Source: Salsipaludibacter albus (GTDB lineage Bacteria; Actinomycetota; Nitriliruptoria; Nitriliruptorales; Nitriliruptoraceae). From it: 64,000 bases of DNA. Below, piece after piece: positions 16,286-25,112 of the stretch. Position 1 is the stretch's first letter; the number at the start of each line of letters is the position of its first letter. Location: assembly GCF_019798055.1 (NCBI RefSeq), contig NZ_JAHOPH010000001.1, positions 248,001 to 312,000 of the forward strand. Direction: 5' to 3'. A model generated the notes under the pieces. The model saw only the letters and a list, made by a program, of their open reading frames with translations. It made no database searches and was not told the origin of the DNA. The translations under genes and the position numbers were made by a program.

Positions 16286-16750
16286 CTATTCCTGCTCGAG
16301 CTCGGCGATGCGTCGGAACGACCGGTACATCTCGAGCAGGGCCTGCTTGTGTGCATCCGTCAGCTCGGGCGCACGCAGGATCGCCTGTTCCACCCCCGCG
16401 TCGGGCTCGGCCTCGTCGAGCAGTCCCGCCCGCACGTAGAGCGTCTCGGAGGAGATCTCCAGCGCGCGGGCGATGGCCTGCAGGATCTCGGCCGAGGGGT
16501 TGCGCAGGCCCCGTTCGATCTGTGACAGGTACGGGTTCGACACCCCGGCCATGTTCGCCAGCTTGCGCAGCGACAGGCGGGCGCCCTCGCGCTGGTGGCG
16601 GATGAACGACCCCAGGTCCGTGCCGGCCTCGCGCAGGAGCTGCTCGACCCGGTGGTCGTCGGCACCGACCGTGGGACCGTCCTCGGGATCGGACTCGGGA
16701 TCGGGGTCGGCCGGGGGGGCGTCGTCGGTCGGGTCGGTCGGGTCGGTCAC
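16286..16750 (-). CDS. XRE-family helix-turn-helix regulator
   Basis: A 154-residue protein with an acidic Asp/Pro-rich N-terminus (about 35 residues) and a Cro/CI helix-turn-helix around residues 50-105: LGSFIRHQREGARLSLRKLA, then NMAGVSNPYLSQIERGLRNPS. The C-terminal part (AELTD... HKQALLEMYRSFRRIAELEQE) is helical. Similar actinobacterial regulators control fatty acid or stress genes; no target is visible here. The GTG at 16750 overlaps the pyrophosphatase stop (GTGA), so it is translated with ppa. Confidence 0.85.
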   Translation of the reverse strand: MTDPTDPTDDAPPADPDPESDPEDGPTVGADDHRVEQLLREAGTDLGSFIRHQREGARLSLRKLANMAGVSNPYLSQIERGLRNPSAEILQAIARALEISSETLYVRAGLLDEAEPDAGVEQAILRAPELTDAHKQALLEMYRSFRRIAELEQE

Positions 16751-17256
16751 GACGCGTCGCCGGGCACGGCGTCGGGATCGCGGTAGCGGGCCAGCGAGTC
16801 CTCGATGGTCCGCCAGGCGACCTCGCGTGGCTCCCAGCCGTGCACGTCGACCACCTTCTCCTCGAGGTTCTTGTAGATCGAGAAGAAGTGGGCGATCTCG
16901 GCCAGCAGGTGGTGCGGGACGTCGGCGAGCTCGCGCACGTGGCGCCAGCGCGGGTCGGAGTGCGGCACGCCCAGGATCTTCTCGTCCGGACCCTGGTCGT
17001 CGGTCATGTCCAGCATCCCGACCACCCGGGCGTTGATCATGCACCCCGGGAACGTGGGCTCGCCCAGGATGACCATCGCGTCGAGCGGGTCGCCGTCCCG
17101 GGCGAGCGTGTCCGGCAGGTAGCCGTAGTCGCCGGGGTAGCGCACCGCCGAGAACAGCATGCGGTCCAGCACGAACACGTCACGTTCCTTGTCGTGCTCG
17201 TACTTGTTGCGAGACCCCATCGGCACCTCGATGAGGACCTCGGTCGCCTCCGTCAT
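16747..17256 (-). CDS. ppa: Inorganic pyrophosphatase
   Basis: Soluble family I pyrophosphatase, hydrolysing PPi released by polymerases and ligases. The 169 residues show IEVPMGSRNKYEHDKE near the N-terminus, YPGDYGYLPDTLARDGDPLDAMV with the metal-binding aspartates, and ILGVPHSDPRW. Short (about 170 residues), as in other actinobacteria. The ATG at 17256 is preferred over an upstream GTG-rich extension because the domain begins there and a purine-rich site (ggaaggtgacgag) precedes it. Confidence 0.96.
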   Translation of the reverse strand: MTEATEVLIEVPMGSRNKYEHDKERDVFVLDRMLFSAVRYPGDYGYLPDTLARDGDPLDAMVILGEPTFPGCMINARVVGMLDMTDDQGPDEKILGVPHSDPRWRHVRELADVPHHLLAEIAHFFSIYKNLEEKVVDVHGWEPREVAWRTIEDSLARYRDPDAVPGDAS

Positions 17257-17357
17257 CTCGTCACCTTCCCACCGTCCGTGGCACCATGCCGGACCCACAG
17301 CCAACCACACCGACGGGACCGACGAGGCGTCGGCCCACCGACCAACGAGGCAACGCG

Positions 17358-17825
17358 ATGAACCTGACCGCCGGCGACACCGCCCCCGACTTCACCCTGC
17401 CGGACCAGGACGGCACCGACGTGACCCTGTCCGAACTGCGTGGCAGCCCGGTCGTCGTCTACTTCTATCCCAAGGACGACACGCCCGGCTGCACGACCCA
17501 GGCCTGCGGCATCCGGGACGCGTGGGGCGACCTGCAGGAGGCCGGCGCGGTCGTGCTGGGCGTGTCGCCGGACGACGTCGCGTCGCACCGGGCCTTCGCG
17601 GAGAAGTACGACCTGCCCCATCGGCTGCTGGCCGACGTCGACAAGGAGGTCATGACGGACTGGGGCGCCTGGGGCGAGAAGGTGCTGTACGGCAAGACGA
17701 CCATCGGCGTGAAGCGCTCCACCGTGCTGGTCGACGCCGACGGCGTGGTGGCCAAGGTCTGGAAGCGCGCCACCCCCAAGACCCACGCCGACGCCCTCCT
17801 CAAGGCCCTCGCCGCCCTGCCCTGA
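17358..17825 (+). CDS. bcp: Thiol peroxidase of the Bcp/PrxQ family
   Basis: Thioredoxin-dependent peroxiredoxin reducing peroxides in the cytoplasm. The 155 residues carry the peroxidatic cysteine in YPKDDTPGCTTQA (Cys45) and the resolving cysteine five residues on (Cys50), the PrxQ arrangement. ATG at 17358 follows CGAGG by seven bases. It is divergent from ppa with about 100 bases between the starts, room for two promoters. Confidence 0.94.
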   Translation: MNLTAGDTAPDFTLPDQDGTDVTLSELRGSPVVVYFYPKDDTPGCTTQACGIRDAWGDLQEAGAVVLGVSPDDVASHRAFAEKYDLPHRLLADVDKEVMTDWGAWGEKVLYGKTTIGVKRSTVLVDADGVVAKVWKRATPKTHADALLKALAALP

Positions 17826-17846
17826 GCTCGCCGGCGGCCGGGTCGC

Positions 17847-18527
17847 CTAGGGCCAGCCGGCCAGCAGCGCGGCGACCACGGCGGCGGCGATCACCACGAC
17901 CAGGGCAAGCACCCACCACCATCGGGACCGGCGCTGGTCCGACGCGTCCTCCAGGTCCGCCACGGTCCGTGCCACTGCCTCGTCCTCGGCGACCTCGTCG
18001 ACCCGCACGGCGACGGGCAGGGCGTCACCGGGCTGTTCGGTCCCACCGTCGACCGTGTCGTCCGCGGGCTCCGCACGGCCGACCGGTGACGTGTCCTCCA
18101 CCGGGGGGCCGGCCTCACCGTCGACGTCCGCGGTCGCCGCGGCCTCGTCCACGCGGGGGTGGACGACCTCGATGATGCGGGCGTCCGCGGCCACGCGGGG
18201 CGCCGGCGGGTCACCCAGCGGACCCCCGAGCATCGCCACGACGTCCTCGACGTCCACGGCCAGCGCAGGCGCGACGGCCTCCGGCGGCACGCCCAGCTCG
18301 GCCAGGACGTCCACGGCGACCTCGAGCGTCATGGGCTGGTGCTGGTCCACGGCCGCGACCAGCCCGGCGAGGTCGTCGGGCTGGGCCTCGTCGACCGCCG
18401 CCCGCACCCGGTCCACGTCGGACGGCCGACACACGACCGCGACCAATCGGTCCGCGAGGTCGTCCAGGTCGGCCGCGCCGGCCCCGTCCAGCGGGGTCGG
18501 ACGCACCACGTCGGCCGGTCCCGTCAC
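17847..18527 (-). CDS. Unassigned acidic protein with C-terminal membrane anchor
   Basis: A 226-residue protein I do not recognise. Residues 1-110 are helical and acidic (repeated Leu/Val-Asp patterns), 110-195 are low-complexity Ala/Asp/Glu/Pro, and the end has a single hydrophobic span (about 203-222) after SDQRRSRWWW, which suggests a cytoplasmic body tethered by a C-terminal anchor. The GTG at 18527 overlaps the YgfZ stop (GTGA), so the two proteins are co-translated. No catalytic motif is visible. Confidence 0.7.
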   Translation of the reverse strand: MTGPADVVRPTPLDGAGAADLDDLADRLVAVVCRPSDVDRVRAAVDEAQPDDLAGLVAAVDQHQPMTLEVAVDVLAELGVPPEAVAPALAVDVEDVVAMLGGPLGDPPAPRVAADARIIEVVHPRVDEAAATADVDGEAGPPVEDTSPVGRAEPADDTVDGGTEQPGDALPVAVRVDEVAEDEAVARTVADLEDASDQRRSRWWWVLALVVVIAAAVVAALLAGWP

Positions 18528-19417
18528 GGTCGCCGCCCCGGCCGGTCCGTGCCGTCGTCACGATCGCGACGCCGTGTCTGGGCCGGCGTCCAACCGACGG
18601 GGTCGCGGTCCTGGCCCACGAACGACGCGACCGCCAGGTCGTCGGCCAGCACGTCGCCCACGCGGGTGTCGGCCTTCACGAAGGCCAGTGCGACCCCACC
18701 GGCCGAACCGGTGACCTCGTCCCCCCCGTCGTCCGCCGCACTGCCGGCGACGACCGCCAGGCGACGACGAGGACGACCCAGCATCCACATGTGGGCGATC
18801 GGCTCCTGGCCCGGATAGCAGCCCTTGGACAGGTGCACGTGGGTCGGGAGGAGCCCGTACTCCTCGGGGAGGCGTCCGGCCACCACCTCGTGTCCCCAGC
18901 GTGGCTCGCCACGTCGGATGCGCAGTTCGTCGAGGTCCACGGTCCGGACCGGACGGTCGCCCGCGACGACGGTGGGATCGTCCGTGCCCACCAGTTCGAC
19001 GCCGAAGGCGTGGTGGACGACCAGGACCTCCCCCGCGGGGCTCTCGACCGCGTGCCAGGTGTCGGCCGGGCCCGCGACCGGGTCGAGCAGGTCCGGCTCG
19101 CTCGACGACGCCAGCGCGGTCACGGGCAGGTCCTCGCGTCGCGTGAACGTGACGTCGGCGAGGAAGGTGCGACGCGCGAGTTCGTCGGTGACGTGGTCGG
19201 CCGCCTCCGGTGGCGCGAGCAGCACCACCCGGTCCTCGTCGACCAGGGCCCAGGCCGCGACCAGGGGTGCCCCCTTGGCCGACAGCACCAGGGCACCCAG
19301 CACCGTCCCGGGGTCCACGCCGGTGAAGCGCTGGGTGGTGACGGCATCGAGGTGACTGGTCCGATCGGCACCCGTCACGTCGATGACGACCAGGTCACTC
19401 GGCGCGGCCTCGAGCAT
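18524..19417 (-). CDS. ygfZ: YgfZ-family folate-binding iron-sulfur cluster protein
   Basis: GcvT-like folate-binding protein thought to help maintain or repair iron-sulfur enzymes. The 297 residues include the signature KGCYPGQEPIAHM (family K-G-C-Y-x-G-Q-E), which holds the conserved cysteine, preceded by the substrate-domain start LVVIDVTGADRTSHLDAVTTQ in truncated form. Actinobacterial members are usually near 300-350 residues. The downstream gene overlaps it; the 140 bases upstream separate it from the thioredoxin gene on the same strand. Confidence 0.9.
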   Translation of the reverse strand: MLEAAPSDLVVIDVTGADRTSHLDAVTTQRFTGVDPGTVLGALVLSAKGAPLVAAWALVDEDRVVLLAPPEAADHVTDELARRTFLADVTFTRREDLPVTALASSSEPDLLDPVAGPADTWHAVESPAGEVLVVHHAFGVELVGTDDPTVVAGDRPVRTVDLDELRIRRGEPRWGHEVVAGRLPEEYGLLPTHVHLSKGCYPGQEPIAHMWMLGRPRRRLAVVAGSAADDGGDEVTGSAGGVALAFVKADTRVGDVLADDLAVASFVGQDRDPVGWTPAQTRRRDRDDGTDRPGRRP

Positions 19418-19559
19418 GGTCGGGGACCTTTTCGTGGGAGGTTCCGGGGTGGGTTCCCCGGGGCGCGTGGCCGTCTCGTGCCCGTCGTGTCACGACGGGC
19501 GGCGGCAGGGCGCGCGGGATGGCACGACCACCGATCCGGGGCACCCCCAGCGTACGTGG

Positions 19560-19955
19560 TCAGGCCACCGGGACCGCGGTCGCGCCGACGGCTGCGGCCA
19601 GGGACTCGCGGTCGATCGTGCCCGCCGCGCGACCCACGAACGAGCCGTCGCGGGCACGCAGCAGCACGGTCGGTGCACGCATCACCCCGTGGCGACGCAC
19701 GAACGCGACGTCCTTGGAGGCATCGACCTCCTCCCAGCCGAACCCGTCGACGTGGCGTGCCAGGTCGTCGAGCAGGATCCGGACCTGCGGGCAGGTCCGA
19801 CATGTCGGCGTCGAGACCAGCACCGCCGAGGTCACGACGGGTGGTGCGGCCGTGGTGGTGTCGACGCGGACCCGGCCGTCCCGCGACTGCCACCACCGCG
19901 CCACCAGGACGACGAGCAGGACCAGCCAACCCACCATCACGGCGCGGGCGATCAT
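19560..19955 (-). CDS. Membrane-anchored thioredoxin-like protein
   Basis: A 131-residue protein: an N-terminal membrane span (about residues 6-20) followed by a small thioredoxin fold with the active-site pair in STPTCRTCPQVR (Cys52, Cys55). The expected cis-proline lies in MRAPTVLL. The orientation implies an extracytoplasmic or membrane-proximal redox role. Its ATG overlaps the stop of the DUF4395 gene (ATGA). DUF4395 plus thioredoxin pairs are common in actinobacteria and often sit with sulfur-transfer genes, so a role in sulfur or disulfide handling is likely but not shown. Confidence 0.82.
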   Translation of the reverse strand: MIARAVMVGWLVLLVVLVARWWQSRDGRVRVDTTTAAPPVVTSAVLVSTPTCRTCPQVRILLDDLARHVDGFGWEEVDASKDVAFVRRHGVMRAPTVLLRARDGSFVGRAAGTIDRESLAAAVGATAVPVA

Positions 19956-20431
19956 CGTGTGCCCCGCAGTCGCAGGGCCGCCACGTACACCTCGCAGCCG
20001 ACGCACAGTCCGGTGACGGCCAGGACGGCCGCCAGGGCCAGCACGACCGTCGCCAGGCCCCAGCCGACCCCGGTGGCACCGGCGAGCACGGCAGCCAGCC
20101 CCGCGCCGGCGACGACCAGCCCGCAGGCCTGGGCGAACCGGGCCGGCCGGGCGTCCTCGGTGGCCGTGGGAGGACCGAGTGCGAACCGGCCGCGCACGAC
20201 GCGGAACAGCACCGCCCACGGTGATCGCGCCACGCCTCGTGTCACCGCCAGGGCGAACACCGCGACCTGGAGGGCGAGCAGGACGATCCCCACCGGCCCC
20301 TGCACGACCAGGGCGACGGCCAGCACCACGGTGGTCACCGCCGCGGAGAACCGCTGACCACGGACGTCGAGGCGGCCCTCGCCGGGGCGCTCGGCGGGTG
20401 GTGCGGTGGTGGGGACGGTCGATGCGTGCAC
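19952..20431 (-). CDS. DUF4395 integral membrane protein
   Basis: A 159-residue membrane protein with about four hydrophobic segments and a C-terminal CxxC (Cys143, Cys146 in TGLCVGCEVY), plus a third cysteine in FAQACGL. The DUF4395 family has no proven function, but the CxxC, the membrane location and the overlapping thioredoxin gene suggest that it passes electrons or sulfur across the membrane. GTG at 20431 is the first start before the domain. A spaced GTGCAAAC repeat lies about 105 bases upstream. Confidence 0.82.
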   Translation of the reverse strand: MHASTVPTTAPPAERPGEGRLDVRGQRFSAAVTTVVLAVALVVQGPVGIVLLALQVAVFALAVTRGVARSPWAVLFRVVRGRFALGPPTATEDARPARFAQACGLVVAGAGLAAVLAGATGVGWGLATVVLALAAVLAVTGLCVGCEVYVAALRLRGTR

Positions 20432-20535
20432 GGTGTTCCCGGTCGGTCGAGGTCGGCCGTGGTGGCCGTGTGGCGGTCGGTCCCGGGGGGGACGACCGAG
20501 TCAACGGCACCGGGGACCGCGATGCTCCTCCCACC

Positions 20536-20552
20536 GTGCAAACCGTGTCAAC
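20536..20552. promoter_or_regulatory. Candidate operator: spaced direct repeat GTGCAAAC-N-GTGTCAAC
   Basis: A 17-base sequence made of two near-identical octamers one base apart, 105 bases upstream of the DUF4395-thioredoxin pair. The matching repeat (GTGCAAAC-N-GTGCAAAC) lies upstream of the neighbouring regulator gene at 21814-21830; I noticed no other copy in the window. Its AT-richer composition stands out. Likely a binding site of the adjacent regulator, by inference. Confidence 0.5.
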
Positions 20553-20598
20553 GCGTGCCCGTCGAGTCTTGCTGCCACGGATGCGACGTGGTCCGGGC

Positions 20599-20632
20599 AC
20601 GTTGGAGTTGCTCGCTGCGCTCGCAACGTCCA
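20599..20632. repeat. Second copy of the dispersed inverted element
   Basis: Arms acgttggagttgctcg (20599-20614) and ctcgcaacgtcca (20620-20632) repeat those at 12319-12355, with a shorter, different middle. Both copies are intergenic. Function unknown; it may be a small non-autonomous repeat family of this genome. Confidence 0.6.
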
Positions 20633-20643
20633 CGCTGCGTGGG

Positions 20644-20688
20644 TGGAGTTCGCGGGGTTCGCGAACTCCAACCTGGCCGCAGGCCAGG
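20644..20688 (-). terminator. Double hairpin, probable terminator of the TusA-like regulator gene
   Basis: Two hairpins in a row: tggagttcgcg-gggtt-cgcgaactcca (20644-20670, 11-bp stem) and cctggcc-gca-ggccagg (20672-20688, 7-bp stem). They begin two bases after the stop codon of the regulator gene as read on the minus strand. No long T run follows, as is usual in high-GC actinobacteria. Confidence 0.5.
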
Positions 20689-20690
20689 CG

Positions 20691-21674
20691 TCAGCGGCGG
20701 TCGGGGTCGAGGAGGCCGGTGGACTTGCGCAGCAGGAGGCGGATCGCGATCCGGCCCTTGACGTCGCGGACGCGGGTCACGTCGACGACCTCGTGGCCGG
20801 TCCGGTCGGCCCAGCGGGCGAACGCAGCCGGCGCGCCCTTCAGGTCGGTCAGGACCTCCACGTGGTCGCCCGTGCGCACCTCCCCCATCGACTGCATGGT
20901 CAGGGCGATGCCCGCCTGGTAGGTCCGTCCCCGGGCATCCAGGCGTGCCACGGGCGAGGGCCTGGCGCTGCCCGACGCGTCCGCACGGACGGTGATGCGC
21001 CCGCGGTCGGACGTGACCGTCGACGCGCCACCGGCCGCCGCGACCGCTCCTCGGACGAAGCCCCGGGCCAGTGCGTCACCGACCTGGCCGTCGACCTCGC
21101 CGATCAGGCGCAGCCCGACGTCCAGGCCCTCCACCACCGCACCGTCGGCGTCGCTGGACACCATCCGTGCCTCGGGGAAGGCCGAGCGCAGTCCCTCGAC
21201 CGCCACGACGGCGGCGGCCTCCAGGTCCCGGGCCTCGGCGCGGCCACCGTTGGCGTCGACCAGGCGACGACCCTCCGCCTCGGCCAGCAGCTCGAGCTTC
21301 TCGGTGTGCTCGACCAGTCCGGCGATCAGCTGGACGACGACGTGGACCCCCAGCTGGCTGCCCGGGGGGACGCGCACGTCCCCACCCCCCGAGCGCGCCT
21401 GTTCCCGGGCGATGTAGACCTTCGCCGGACGACCACCCTTGGGGTTGCGACGGCTGCCCACCACCACCAGGCCGACGTCGGCGAGCTGGTCGAGGTGACC
21501 CCGGGCGACGTTGGGATGCAGCCCGAACATCTCCGCCACGTCCTTGGCCGACACGCCGTCGCCGTCGGTGCGCAGTCGCCGGTAGATCCCGGCCCTCGTC
21601 GGCGCCGCCAGCACCTCGGCGACCGGGTCGTCGGCGGTCTCGAGGCGCTCGAGCGCATGGTCCCCGGTCACCAC
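20691..21674 (-). CDS. Winged-helix regulator fused to a degenerate TusA-like domain
   Basis: A 327-residue protein with an ArsR/MarR-type winged helix at residues 20-90 (VSAKDVAEMFGLHPNVARGH is the helix-turn-helix, GGRPAKVY the wing), a middle region (110-230) resembling the sensory part of helix-turn-helix proteins with a 4-vinyl-reductase-like length, and a C-terminal domain (244-317) that follows TusA: LDARGR at the start and the closing GRIAIRLLLRKS. The sulfur-carrying Cys-Pro of TusA is replaced by Tyr252-Gln253. It neighbours the DUF4395-thioredoxin genes and shares a candidate operator with them. A sensor of sulfur carrier state is a reasonable guess only. Confidence 0.75.
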   Translation of the reverse strand: MVTGDHALERLETADDPVAEVLAAPTRAGIYRRLRTDGDGVSAKDVAEMFGLHPNVARGHLDQLADVGLVVVGSRRNPKGGRPAKVYIAREQARSGGGDVRVPPGSQLGVHVVVQLIAGLVEHTEKLELLAEAEGRRLVDANGGRAEARDLEAAAVVAVEGLRSAFPEARMVSSDADGAVVEGLDVGLRLIGEVDGQVGDALARGFVRGAVAAAGGASTVTSDRGRITVRADASGSARPSPVARLDARGRTYQAGIALTMQSMGEVRTGDHVEVLTDLKGAPAAFARWADRTGHEVVDVTRVRDVKGRIAIRLLLRKSTGLLDPDRR

Positions 21675-21813
21675 GACGTCACCGGCGCGATCGAGCGGTG
21701 CACGGTGGACATGTGGATCCCGTGGGCAGCCGAAGGTTCGTCAGCAGGGCGGTCGGCCAACGGCGCGACGTCCGCAGGGTCATGGCCACGCGCACCGGGC
21801 AGCGACCATGATG

Positions 21814-21830
21814 GTGCAAACAGTGCAAAC
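21814..21830. promoter_or_regulatory. Candidate operator: spaced direct repeat GTGCAAAC-N-GTGCAAAC
   Basis: Perfect direct repeat of an octamer with one base between, 140 bases upstream of the winged-helix/TusA-like regulator. The near-identical site at 20536-20552 is upstream of the DUF4395-thioredoxin genes. Two matching, AT-richer sites before two adjacent transcription units point to autoregulation plus control of the redox pair. Confidence 0.5.
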
Positions 21831-21847
21831 CGGCAAGCTGCCGGGGA

Positions 21848-22216
21848 TCACATCAGTGGGCGGAACCAGGGGATGCCGGCCAGCACCAGGACGAGCGCCA
21901 CGAGCGTGAAGAGTCCGAGCACCCGTGGAGGCCCCTCGCCGCGGCCGGCACGCGCGGTGCCGACCTGGAACACGCCCAGGGCGGCGATCATCGCGACCGG
22001 GTGCCACATCGCGAGGAAGGGTCCCTGCTCCCAGCCCTGGTCGGCGACGTAGAGCACGAGGCCCAGCACCACCTGCAGAGCGAAGATCCCGCCGACGACC
22101 CGGACCCAGGTCGGGACCCCGCTCCGGTCCCCGGTGAAGGCCCAGGCGATCACGGCGACCAGGCCGGCCAGGACCAGCCAGCGCAGTCCGGAGTGGGCAG
22201 CGAGCACGACGTCCAT
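21848..22216 (-). CDS. Four-span membrane protein with conserved histidines
   Basis: A protein of about 122 residues with four hydrophobic helices. HSGLRWLVLAG opens the first helix and MWHPVAMIAALG the third; the histidine pair in helices one and three resembles small cytochrome-b-like or heme-handling proteins, but no assignment is safe. ATG at 22216 is chosen; a GTG one codon upstream is equally possible. The next gene is 30 bases upstream on the same strand. Confidence 0.65.
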   Translation of the reverse strand: MDVVLAAHSGLRWLVLAGLVAVIAWAFTGDRSGVPTWVRVVGGIFALQVVLGLVLYVADQGWEQGPFLAMWHPVAMIAALGVFQVGTARAGRGEGPPRVLGLFTLVALVLVLAGIPWFRPLM

Positions 22217-22246
22217 CACGAGCCTCGAGTCGGGGAGCGGTCGACG

Positions 22247-22501
22247 CTACCGGGGCCCGGCACCGCCCGCGAAGGGAGGGACGACCACCACCTCGTCCGC
22301 GGTCGACAGGTCGACCGAGTCGTCGTCCGGGGCCACGACGACCTCGTCCACCCACACGCTGGCCGTCGTCAGCCGGGCGGCCATCAGCTCACCGTGGTCG
22401 GCCGCGAGCCGCGCCAGCAGTTCGGGGACCGTGGTGACGTCGAGGTCGAGCTCGCGTGCCCCCGCAGCGTCGGCGATCGCGGCGAACAGCCGCACGCGCA
22501 T
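22247..22501 (-). CDS. MoaD/ThiS-family ubiquitin-like sulfur carrier
   Basis: An 84-residue beta-grasp protein: MRVRLFAAIADAAG, the strand VVVAPDDDSVDL and the closing VVVVPPFAGG. MoaD carries sulfur for molybdopterin synthesis as a C-terminal thiocarboxylate, so the usual last residues are Gly-Gly. Here the Gly-Gly is followed by four more residues (AGPR), so it would need trimming or may not be a canonical MoaD. The ATG overlaps the stop of the upstream hydrolase by one base (TGATG). No other molybdenum cofactor gene is present in the window. Confidence 0.78.
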   Translation of the reverse strand: MRVRLFAAIADAAGARELDLDVTTVPELLARLAADHGELMAARLTTASVWVDEVVVAPDDDSVDLSTADEVVVVPPFAGGAGPR

Positions 22502-23508
22502 CAGGCGACCTCCGTGCGCGGAGGCCACGTGGCTGGCGGGGCGACCGCGTCCCCGGGCGGCGCGGAGGACGGACCGCCCGCCGCCTCCACGAACCCGCCC
22601 GCCTCGGCGGCCGACGTGATCGCGTCGGCGAGCCGGTGGCAGAATTCCGGCGTGAGCCCGTCCTCGGCGTGGCCGAAGACCGGCTCGACCCACAGCACGG
22701 CCCGGTCGCCACGGGCCAGCGCCTCGCCGTGCCCGACCGGGAAGTAGCTGTCGTCACGACCGTGCACCACCAGGGTGGGCAGGTCGGCCGGGAGCACGTC
22801 GGCGGGATGTCGTGGCTCCGACCAGGTCGCCGGCGGCGCGACGTCGACGTGCAGGGCACGCCGCATCACCAGCCGGGACCAGGGCGAGTGCCAGTGCCGG
22901 TGGAGCTGGCGCAGGGGCTCGGTGGCCGGTTCCTCGTCGAACCACCCCGGTCCGGAGACCAGCACCAGCGCGTCCACGTCGACGCCGGTGGCAGCGGCGT
23001 GGACGGCGGCGGTCGAGCCCATGGACACGCCGAGCGCGGTCACGTGCCGGTGCCCGTCGGCGCGCAGCGCGGCGACCGCCGCGGCGACGTCGTGGCGCTC
23101 GGCGTCGCCCAGGGTCGACGAGCCAGCGGACCGACCGTGCCCACGCAGGTCGACCGACAGCACCGCCAGGTCGCGCGACAACTCGTCGGCCAGCCGGGCG
23201 TACGCCGGCTTGGCGGCACTCGCCGCGAACCCGTGCAGCAGCACGACGGCCGGGACCGTCGCCGGATCCCGCCAGCGGGCGGGCCCGGGCAGGGACACGG
23301 CCGACAGCCACACCCCGTCGGCGGCGTGCAGGCGACGTCGGCGATGCGGCGCATGGTGGCGGCCAAGCGTGCCCCGTGCCTCGAGGAACCGGCGCAGCGG
23401 CCCGCGCACGGGCGCGGCGAGTGCCTCGGGGGCGCCGGCCGCGTCGGCGGCGGGATCCGCCACCCGGGGTGCGGGGCGATCCGCAGGCGTGGAAAGGTGT
23501 CCAGTCAT
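22501..23508 (-). CDS. Alpha/beta hydrolase
   Basis: A 335-residue alpha/beta hydrolase with a nucleophile elbow GVSMGS, oxyanion-side VVLLHGFAAS, the acid in LVVHGRDDSYFP and the histidine in PVFGHAEDG. The long N-terminus (first 45 residues, Ala/Pro-rich) and the C-terminal 25 residues are outside the fold. Substrate unknown; homologues are often annotated as lipases or peptidases. It is coupled to the MoaD-like gene and divergent from glnR with only about 20 bases between starts. Confidence 0.8.
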   Translation of the reverse strand: MTGHLSTPADRPAPRVADPAADAAGAPEALAAPVRGPLRRFLEARGTLGRHHAPHRRRRLHAADGVWLSAVSLPGPARWRDPATVPAVVLLHGFAASAAKPAYARLADELSRDLAVLSVDLRGHGRSAGSSTLGDAERHDVAAAVAALRADGHRHVTALGVSMGSTAAVHAAATGVDVDALVLVSGPGWFDEEPATEPLRQLHRHWHSPWSRLVMRRALHVDVAPPATWSEPRHPADVLPADLPTLVVHGRDDSYFPVGHGEALARGDRAVLWVEPVFGHAEDGLTPEFCHRLADAITSAAEAGGFVEAAGGPSSAPPGDAVAPPATWPPRTEVA

Positions 23509-23515
23509 CAGTGCC

Positions 23516-23521
23516 TATGCT
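23516..23521 (+). promoter_or_regulatory. Candidate -10 element of glnR (leaderless)
   Basis: TATGCT ends six bases before the ATG of glnR, the same geometry as the TACGCT before the isomerase at 7473. No ribosome binding site fits in the gap, consistent with a leaderless mRNA. Inferred. Confidence 0.35.
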
Positions 23522-23527
23522 GCCAGA

Positions 23528-24226
23528 ATGCATCTGTTCGTGCTCACCGACCGAGCCTCCGGGGCCAAGGGGTTGCTCCCCTCGCTGGAGTTCCTCGCGC
23601 ACACCCTGGACGAGGTCCCGCTGGACCCCGGTCGCGTGACCGGTCTCCAGCACGTCGACGTGGTCGTCGTGGACGCGACGGGCGACCTGCGCGAGGCCAT
23701 GTCGGTGTGCCGCCGGGTCACCACCCACGAGTTGCGCTGTCCCCTCCTGCTGGTCGCCGGCGAGGCCAGCCTCGCCGCGCTCAAGGTCACGTGGGGCTTC
23801 GACGACTGGATGCTTCCCGGGGTCAGCCCGGGCGAACTCGAGACCCGCCTGCGGCTGGTCGCGGACCGCGCGGCGCGGGACGCGTCCGAGCCCACGGCCG
23901 AGGTCGGTGACCTCGTCGTCGACGAGGACAGCTACCAGGTCCGTCTGCGTGGGCGCCCGCTCGACCTCACCTACAAGGAGTTCGAGCTCATCAAGGCCAT
24001 GGCCGGCCACCCCAACCGCGTGTTCACCCGCGAACTGCTGTTGCAGGAGGTGTGGGGCTACGACTACTACGGCGGCTCACGCACCGTCGACGTCCACGTC
24101 CGACGCCTGCGGGCCAAGTTCGGACCCGAGCACGAGCAGCTGATCCAGACGGTCCGCGGCGTGGGCTACAAACTGGTCCACCCCCGCCCCCGGGCCGACG
24201 CCCCAGGCGACGACCGCGACGACTGA
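23528..24226 (+). CDS. glnR: GlnR-type orphan OmpR-family regulator
   Basis: Controls nitrogen assimilation genes in actinobacteria. The 232 residues have a divergent receiver domain (1-118; Asp49 in VVVVDATGD occupies the acceptor site, but the usual acidic pocket is missing, as in GlnR, which works without phosphorylation) and a winged helix (126-217) with GRPLDLTYKEFELIK, LLQEVWGYDYYGGSRTVDVH and VRGVGYKL. Convergent with mshD, as in Streptomyces. A sensor kinase is absent, consistent with an orphan regulator. Confidence 0.85.
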   Translation: MHLFVLTDRASGAKGLLPSLEFLAHTLDEVPLDPGRVTGLQHVDVVVVDATGDLREAMSVCRRVTTHELRCPLLLVAGEASLAALKVTWGFDDWMLPGVSPGELETRLRLVADRAARDASEPTAEVGDLVVDEDSYQVRLRGRPLDLTYKEFELIKAMAGHPNRVFTRELLLQEVWGYDYYGGSRTVDVHVRRLRAKFGPEHEQLIQTVRGVGYKLVHPRPRADAPGDDRDD

Positions 24227-24251
24227 CCGGCATCGGCTGACGGCGTCCGAA

Positions 24252-25112
24252 CTACGTCAGGGCGACGTCGTCCCACAGGGTCTCGAACCCGACCGAGTCG
24301 TACAGCTTGAGCGCTCGGTGGTTGCTGCGGTCGACCCACAGGATGATCTCGTCCAGGCCGATGTCGGCCAGGTGGGCCATGCCGGCGGTCAGCAGTGCCC
24401 GACCCAGCCCCTTGCCCTGGGCCCACGGTGCGATCGCGAGGTTGTAGGTCTCGCCGCGGTGGGTGGTGCGTTGCTTGGTCCAGTGGATCCCGGCGATCCG
24501 ACCGTCGGGCGTGGACGCGACCAGCAGGTCACGGTCGCGGTACCACGGGTAGGCCCGTCGTCGCTCGAGCTCGTCACGCGTCCACCCGCCGTCGTCGGTC
24601 CCGTCGTAGGCGTCCAGCAGCACGGCGAGCACGCCGTCGAGGTCTTCGTTGGTGACCGCGCGGATCCGCAGGTCGTCCGGCGGGTCGGCCACGTCCACGG
24701 TCGCCAGGCCGCGACCGACGACCCCCAGGCGACGCCGGATCGTGAACCCGGCAGCCTCGGCCGCGGCCAGCTCGTCCTCGGTCGAGAACCGCAGCCAGGT
24801 GATCAGCTCGCGGTCGCCGGCCTGCTCACGTTGCCACGCCAGCAGCACCGGCAGTACGTCGGCGCCGTCCAGCGACACCACGTCGCCACCGACCGCGTCG
24901 TCACGCTCGACGACCGCGGCGTAGCCCACCACCGAGCCCTCCTGCTCGGCGACGGCTGCGGTCCACCCCTTTCGGGACCGGCGCCCGGACAGCCGGGCGA
25001 GCTCGGCCTCGTCCACGACGTCGCCACCACGCTTCTCGCCCGCACGGGACAGCAGGTTGGACACGCGCGCCGTGTCGACGTCGGCGAGTGGGACCAGCGT
25101 GGGCTCGGGCAT
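24252..25112 (-). CDS. mshD: Mycothiol synthase (Cys-GlcN-Ins acetyltransferase)
   Basis: Last step of mycothiol synthesis: N-acetylates the cysteine of Cys-GlcN-Ins using acetyl-CoA. The 286 residues form two GNAT domains. The C-terminal one has the acetyl-CoA loop APWAQGKGLGRALLTAG and LWVDRSNHRALKLYDSVGFE, the MshD pattern, preceded by IHWTKQR. It converges on glnR with a 25-base gap. With mshA it shows that this organism makes mycothiol. Confidence 0.9.
   Translation of the reverse strand: MPEPTLVPLADVDTARVSNLLSRAGEKRGGDVVDEAELARLSGRRSRKGWTAAVAEQEGSVVGYAAVVERDDAVGGDVVSLDGADVLPVLLAWQREQAGDRELITWLRFSTEDELAAAEAAGFTIRRRLGVVGRGLATVDVADPPDDLRIRAVTNEDLDGVLAVLLDAYDGTDDGGWTRDELERRRAYPWYRDRDLLVASTPDGRIAGIHWTKQRTTHRGETYNLAIAPWAQGKGLGRALLTAGMAHLADIGLDEIILWVDRSNHRALKLYDSVGFETLWDDVALT

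Follow-up and report, generated by a model that had tools for sequence, protein, structure and literature searches.

A cysteine-free TusA-like domain on a predicted sulfur-assimilation regulator of Nitriliruptoria

What can a sulfur-relay fold do on a DNA-binding protein once the residue that would carry the sulfur is gone? TusA relays sulfur as a persulfide on its Cys-Pro motif. In the window, the whole 64,000-nucleotide stretch of Salsipaludibacter albus DNA that was analyzed, a TusA-like domain with a different residue pair at this position is joined to a winged helix, next to genes for two membrane proteins with CxxC motifs. The protein, referred to here as the regulator, has the following composition.

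20691..21674, minus strand: regulator of 327 aa, consisting of a winged helix, a middle domain and a C-terminal TusA-like domain (Pfam, orthologues, model and Foldseek)
21405..21629, minus strand: winged-helix DNA-binding domain, about residues 16-90, with the recognition helix HPNVAR.HL (HTH_20 at residues 22-72)
20727..20951, minus strand: TusA-fold domain, about residues 242-316, with Tyr252-Gln253 replacing Cys-Pro (Pfam, alignment, model and Foldseek)

The winged helix is ArsR/SufR-like (Pfam HTH_20, E 5e-10). The regulator matches Pfam TusA (PF01206) with 24.9 bits, under the gathering cut-off of 28.6. In the AlphaFold model, the C-terminal domain forms a confident beta-alpha-beta-alpha-beta-beta arrangement, for which Foldseek returned E. 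coli TusA (3lvj_C, TMt 0.84) as the best match and also matched YeeD/TsuB. A TusA-type domain with Tyr252-Gln253 in place of Cys-Pro, which had been proposed from the letters alone with modelling as a check, is thus confirmed by its fold. We set aside the Foldseek hits of the complete model to methyltransferases because their rmsd was about 18 Å over chimeric alignments, and a PDB sequence search gave nothing beyond weak winged-helix matches. Against NCBIfam SufR_cyano, the regulator scored 16.6 bits, below the curated score of 178.8; its middle domain has no cysteine ligands, and there are zero cysteines along the entire protein.

To place the protein among its relatives, we used genomes of Nitriliruptoraceae, Egibacteraceae and Euzebyaceae (class Nitriliruptoria). 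Matches to the regulator were present in 54 of 61 related genomes, a few of them spanning the winged helix only, and in 32 of the 33 good Nitriliruptoria genomes. Among 29 aligned orthologues, the Cys-Pro position is occupied by Tyr-Gln, Tyr-Glu, Phe-Glu, Phe-Asp, Leu-Glu or Arg-Glu and never by cysteine (0/29); the TusA-like domain is cysteine-free in all 29 and the whole protein in 25, including that of the window. The alignment indicates that the loss of the motif is class-wide. Within the same domain, P281, A282, A285-D289, R290, G292 and H293 are invariant and belong to the most conserved residues of the protein.

Downstream of the regulator gene and on the same strand lie the two genes of the redox pair.

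19952..20431, minus strand: membrane protein of the DUF4395 type (PF14340, E 5e-28), CVGC close to its C-terminus
19560..19955, minus strand: membrane-anchored thioredoxin-like protein with CRTC (weak Pfam thioredoxin matches, CxxC read directly)

The DUF4395 protein scores 98.4 bits against PF14340, above the gathering score of 24.5, the best thioredoxin match of its partner has an E value of 0.0012, and the two genes overlap by 4 bp, so that the pair of CxxC membrane proteins described in the sequence-only reading was borne out. The pair is part of a gene block at 16747-25112 that is largely kept across Nitriliruptoria and comprises PPase, peroxiredoxin, YgfZ, Trx, DUF4395, the regulator, MoaD/ThiS, a hydrolase, a response regulator and an acetyltransferase. 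Between regulator and DUF4395, at 20592-20692, there is a palindromic, strongly folding intergenic element that resembles a REP-type repeat, with parts of it recurring at about 50 further positions in the genome.

The redox pair had been taken as the regulator's neighborhood, a description that missed a further set of neighbors, as many relatives carry three small genes between regulator and DUF4395, in some genomes followed by cysH. The genes of this trio match DsrE or DsrH, mostly weakly, and for the modelled product of the first gene the matches are E. coli YchN, DsrEFH and TusBCD. Of the 61 genomes, 28 have the third gene, in almost every case at a distance of about 1 kb from the regulator; a search with the model of this gene did not find it in the window genome or its sister, and the window genome is accordingly taken to lack the trio.

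Which genes the regulator might control can be approached through two candidate operators in the window.

21814..21830, minus strand: candidate operator GTTTGCACTGTTTGCAC ahead of the regulator gene, 0 mismatches, conserved ahead of orthologues
20536..20552, minus strand: candidate operator GTTGACACGGTTTGCAC ahead of DUF4395, also present in L004, a genome of the same genus

The spaced direct repeat claimed earlier ahead of both units is real at both sites, but its strand had to be corrected: because the regulator and DUF4395 genes are both on the minus strand, the gene-sense reading is GTTTGCAC-N-GTTTGCAC, a 17-bp tandem octamer of the form GTTYRCAC-N-GTTYRCAC on the gene strand. At up to two mismatches, the window contains only these two matches, with 0.05 expected; as the pattern was derived from both sites, the independent test is its conservation in relatives. 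The element stands about 86-189 bp ahead of most Nitriliruptoraceae regulator orthologues. Of the two positions, the one upstream of the regulator is thus conserved. Ahead of DUF4395, the element is confined to this genus (window and L004; a match in L010 is weak at best), as the DUF4395 gene of relatives comes next after the regulator or is separated from it by the DsrE-like trio. Allowing up to one mismatch, we counted 51 elements across 24 genomes of the two nearest families (same order), compared to 2 occurrences of a reversed control pattern, and 7 elements versus 4 controls in 13 genomes from other families of the class, indicating that it is weak or diverged there. Outside the class there is little excess (46 versus 30 controls in 108 genomes of the phylum, by our own count). 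Matches with two mismatches in the window's own genome were not used, as they barely exceeded the control (14 versus 10), and a site on contig C15 of L074 was treated as chance because it falls inside a transporter gene. In a cross-phylum comparison of one locus, a SufR-like homologue from Symbiobacteriaceae with the helix HPNVARTHL has GTTTACACTGTGTCAAT ahead of its own gene, showing the same half-site and the same 1-bp gap as the Nitriliruptoria element. In 6 of 23 regulator promoters (L010, L012, L014, L016, L017 and L026), a second, inverted copy lies downstream of the first at 48, 58, 59 or 69 bp (range 48-69 bp), distances that are about one helical turn apart; the inverted copy could serve autoregulation.

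For a search beyond the locus, we trained a matrix solely on 23 sites ahead of regulator genes and applied a threshold of at least 12 bits. Sites at or above this threshold were found ahead of moeZ, encoding a ThiF-rhodanese protein, in 21 of 30 genomes, every one of them in gene orientation; 258 control windows yielded none. The window's own genome carries the element upstream of the regulator, DUF4395, moeZ (contig C28) and cysO-cysM (contig C26). In relatives, further sites precede cysO-cysM, metY-metX, cysH, cysDN, sulfite reductase, two rhodanese genes and peroxiredoxins. These gene names were read off translated sequences, Pfam having been applied to the genes of the window locus and to those beside the regulator in relatives. 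A shared operator-like element ahead of sulfur-assimilation genes, as would be looked for with a CymR/CysB-like sulfur-assimilation regulator, was therefore found. In most genomes there is no detectable site at cysM and cysH, so that the regulon varies and its stable core, besides the regulator, is moeZ. Control of the redox pair and of the regulator itself, as put forward before, is probable for both, but that proposal did not capture the main conserved targets, moeZ above all and, here, cysO-cysM.

The position of the element relative to the promoter provides a clue to its possible mode of action. In most of 18 moeZ promoters (13 by our own count), the element is followed by 6-7 bp, GGAAGN, 17-18 bp and GTT. 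A similar arrangement is seen just downstream of the DUF4395 operator.

20503..20528, minus strand: promoter-like GGAGCA-N17-GTT, at the same offset as in the moeZ promoters of relatives

Activators typically bind directly upstream of the -35 region, and the placement of the element there at moeZ and DUF4395 suggests that the regulator would act as one. The moeZ promoter (GGAAGN-17/18 bp-GTT) resembles the consensus of SigH, GGAAYR-N17-GTT, a sigma factor that in M. tuberculosis has moeZ and mec-cysO-cysM under its control (PMC4803200). The mycobacterial proteins MoeZ, CysO and CysM constitute a route to cysteine (PMC3227635, PMC4803200).

From these data we consider it probable, on sequence-based grounds, that sulfur assimilation in Nitriliruptoria is governed by the regulator as a master transcription factor, with the TusA-like domain serving as signal input through docking or ligand binding. 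The winged helix would bind GTTYRCAC-N-GTTYRCAC upstream of the regulator's own gene, of moeZ and of other sulfur genes, here cysO-cysM and DUF4395-Trx; at moeZ and DUF4395, where the element lies close upstream of the -35 region, the bound protein would activate transcription. The TusA fold, having lost the sulfur-bearing cysteine, would have become the signal input; the signal would come from a docked sulfur-relay partner or from a bound small sulfur metabolite, and not from a persulfide carried by the domain. In many relatives, the DsrE/DsrH-like trio encoded directly downstream would provide likely docking partners; the window genome has no trio, so that such docking could not fully explain the mechanism here. 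A more tentative extension, which we regard as possible at best, is that the TusA domain on the transcription factor and the DsrE/F/H-like trio represent a cysteine-free copy of a TusA-TusBCD-type relay, which would act as a docking sensor reporting the state of the real sulfur-carrier pathway to the master regulator, the trio having later been lost in some lineages, including that of the window. In Nitriliruptoria, a class without a sulfur regulator in the literature searched, the regulator would be the predicted master switch of cysteine synthesis that depends on a sulfur carrier (MoeZ, CysO, CysM), and a fold for sulfur transfer seems to have taken on signaling after losing its chemistry. 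The same searches gave nothing direct on TusA-regulator fusions, SufR with TusA, DUF4395 function or sulfur assimilation in Nitriliruptor.

OmpR-type response regulators typically recognize direct repeats, and one such protein is encoded in the same conserved gene block (23541-24226, plus strand). The tandem octamer might thus be bound by another protein, such as this response regulator, the TusA-fused protein being merely a target or an unrelated neighbor. In line with this, one fragmented draft assembly (G022) has perfect element sites, and the regulator was not found in it. However, the boxes of actinobacterial PhoP and GlnR have an 11-bp period, compared to the 9-bp period of the element; the element is limited to the class in which the TusA-fused regulator occurs and stands ahead of the regulator gene, and the half-site recurs ahead of the homologue from another phylum that has the same recognition helix. 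We therefore regard binding by another protein as unlikely.

A different question is whether the TusA-like domain reads anything at all. It may be a dimerization module or a structural remnant, with sulfur status being sensed elsewhere, for example in the SufR-like middle domain or, at the shared promoters, by an alternative sigma factor. The catalytic motif is indeed lost, ligand and partner of the domain are still candidates, and the SigH-type appearance of the moeZ promoters implies that a sigma factor could respond to thiol stress. On the other hand, the middle domain has no cysteine ligands, and the set of invariant residues between P281 and H293 exceeds the conservation of a remnant, which makes this explanation a rather doubtful one. 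Chemical sensing of persulfide or of the sulfur-carrier state, which a sulfur regulon and a TusA fold might suggest, is nearly excluded, as 25 of the 29 orthologues, the window protein among them, have no cysteine. Of the sensing module for sulfur-carrier or persulfide state that had been envisaged for this domain, sensing through docking or a small ligand fits the data, but direct persulfide reading is weakened by the lack of cysteine and was dropped as the leading idea.

The predicted master regulator can be compared with several known systems. Its winged helix and recognition helix resemble those of a SufR-like protein (L069, Symbiobacteriaceae) encoded beside SufC- and SufD-like genes, and it shares with SufR an autoregulatory site, here a candidate. 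In contrast to SufR, in which the Fe-S ligands follow CX12CX13CX14C (PMC8593673), it has no Fe-S cysteines and carries an extra TusA-fold domain, and its predicted regulon is sulfur assimilation instead of suf operons. The C-terminal domain corresponds to TusA/SirA carriers in fold and length, but Cys-Pro is replaced and the domain is fused to a DNA-binding protein. Similarly, the trio beside the regulator in relatives has the fold of TusBCD/DsrEFH but no conserved cysteine (first and third genes). The ArsR repressors sHdrR and SoxR of Hyphomicrobium, which are described as responding to sulfane sulfur (PMC12423496, PMC10451225), have a similar ArsR-like winged helix and sulfur context, whereas the regulator has no reactive cysteine to modify. 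With M. tuberculosis SigH, the system has in common the targets moeZ and mec-cysO-cysM and a similar GGAA-N17-GTT at moeZ (PMC4803200), but Nitriliruptoria have a dedicated 17-bp element upstream of that promoter.

Two further observations concern genes outside the window. The window's own genome (L001) encodes on contig C51 a separate TusA with an intact Cys-Pro, convergent with an apparent ThiS/MoaD-type sulfur carrier. In nine Nitriliruptoraceae genomes, and not in that of the window, a conserved protein of about 50 aa starts 44-45 bp past the element, upstream of a thiolase gene.

L095:1563-1709, L145:1792-1956, L153:2062-2217, L159:73-234 and L151:2062-2226: protein of about 50 aa with the pattern TMRRVxAxLRAGxAPSFEALLAYGxP
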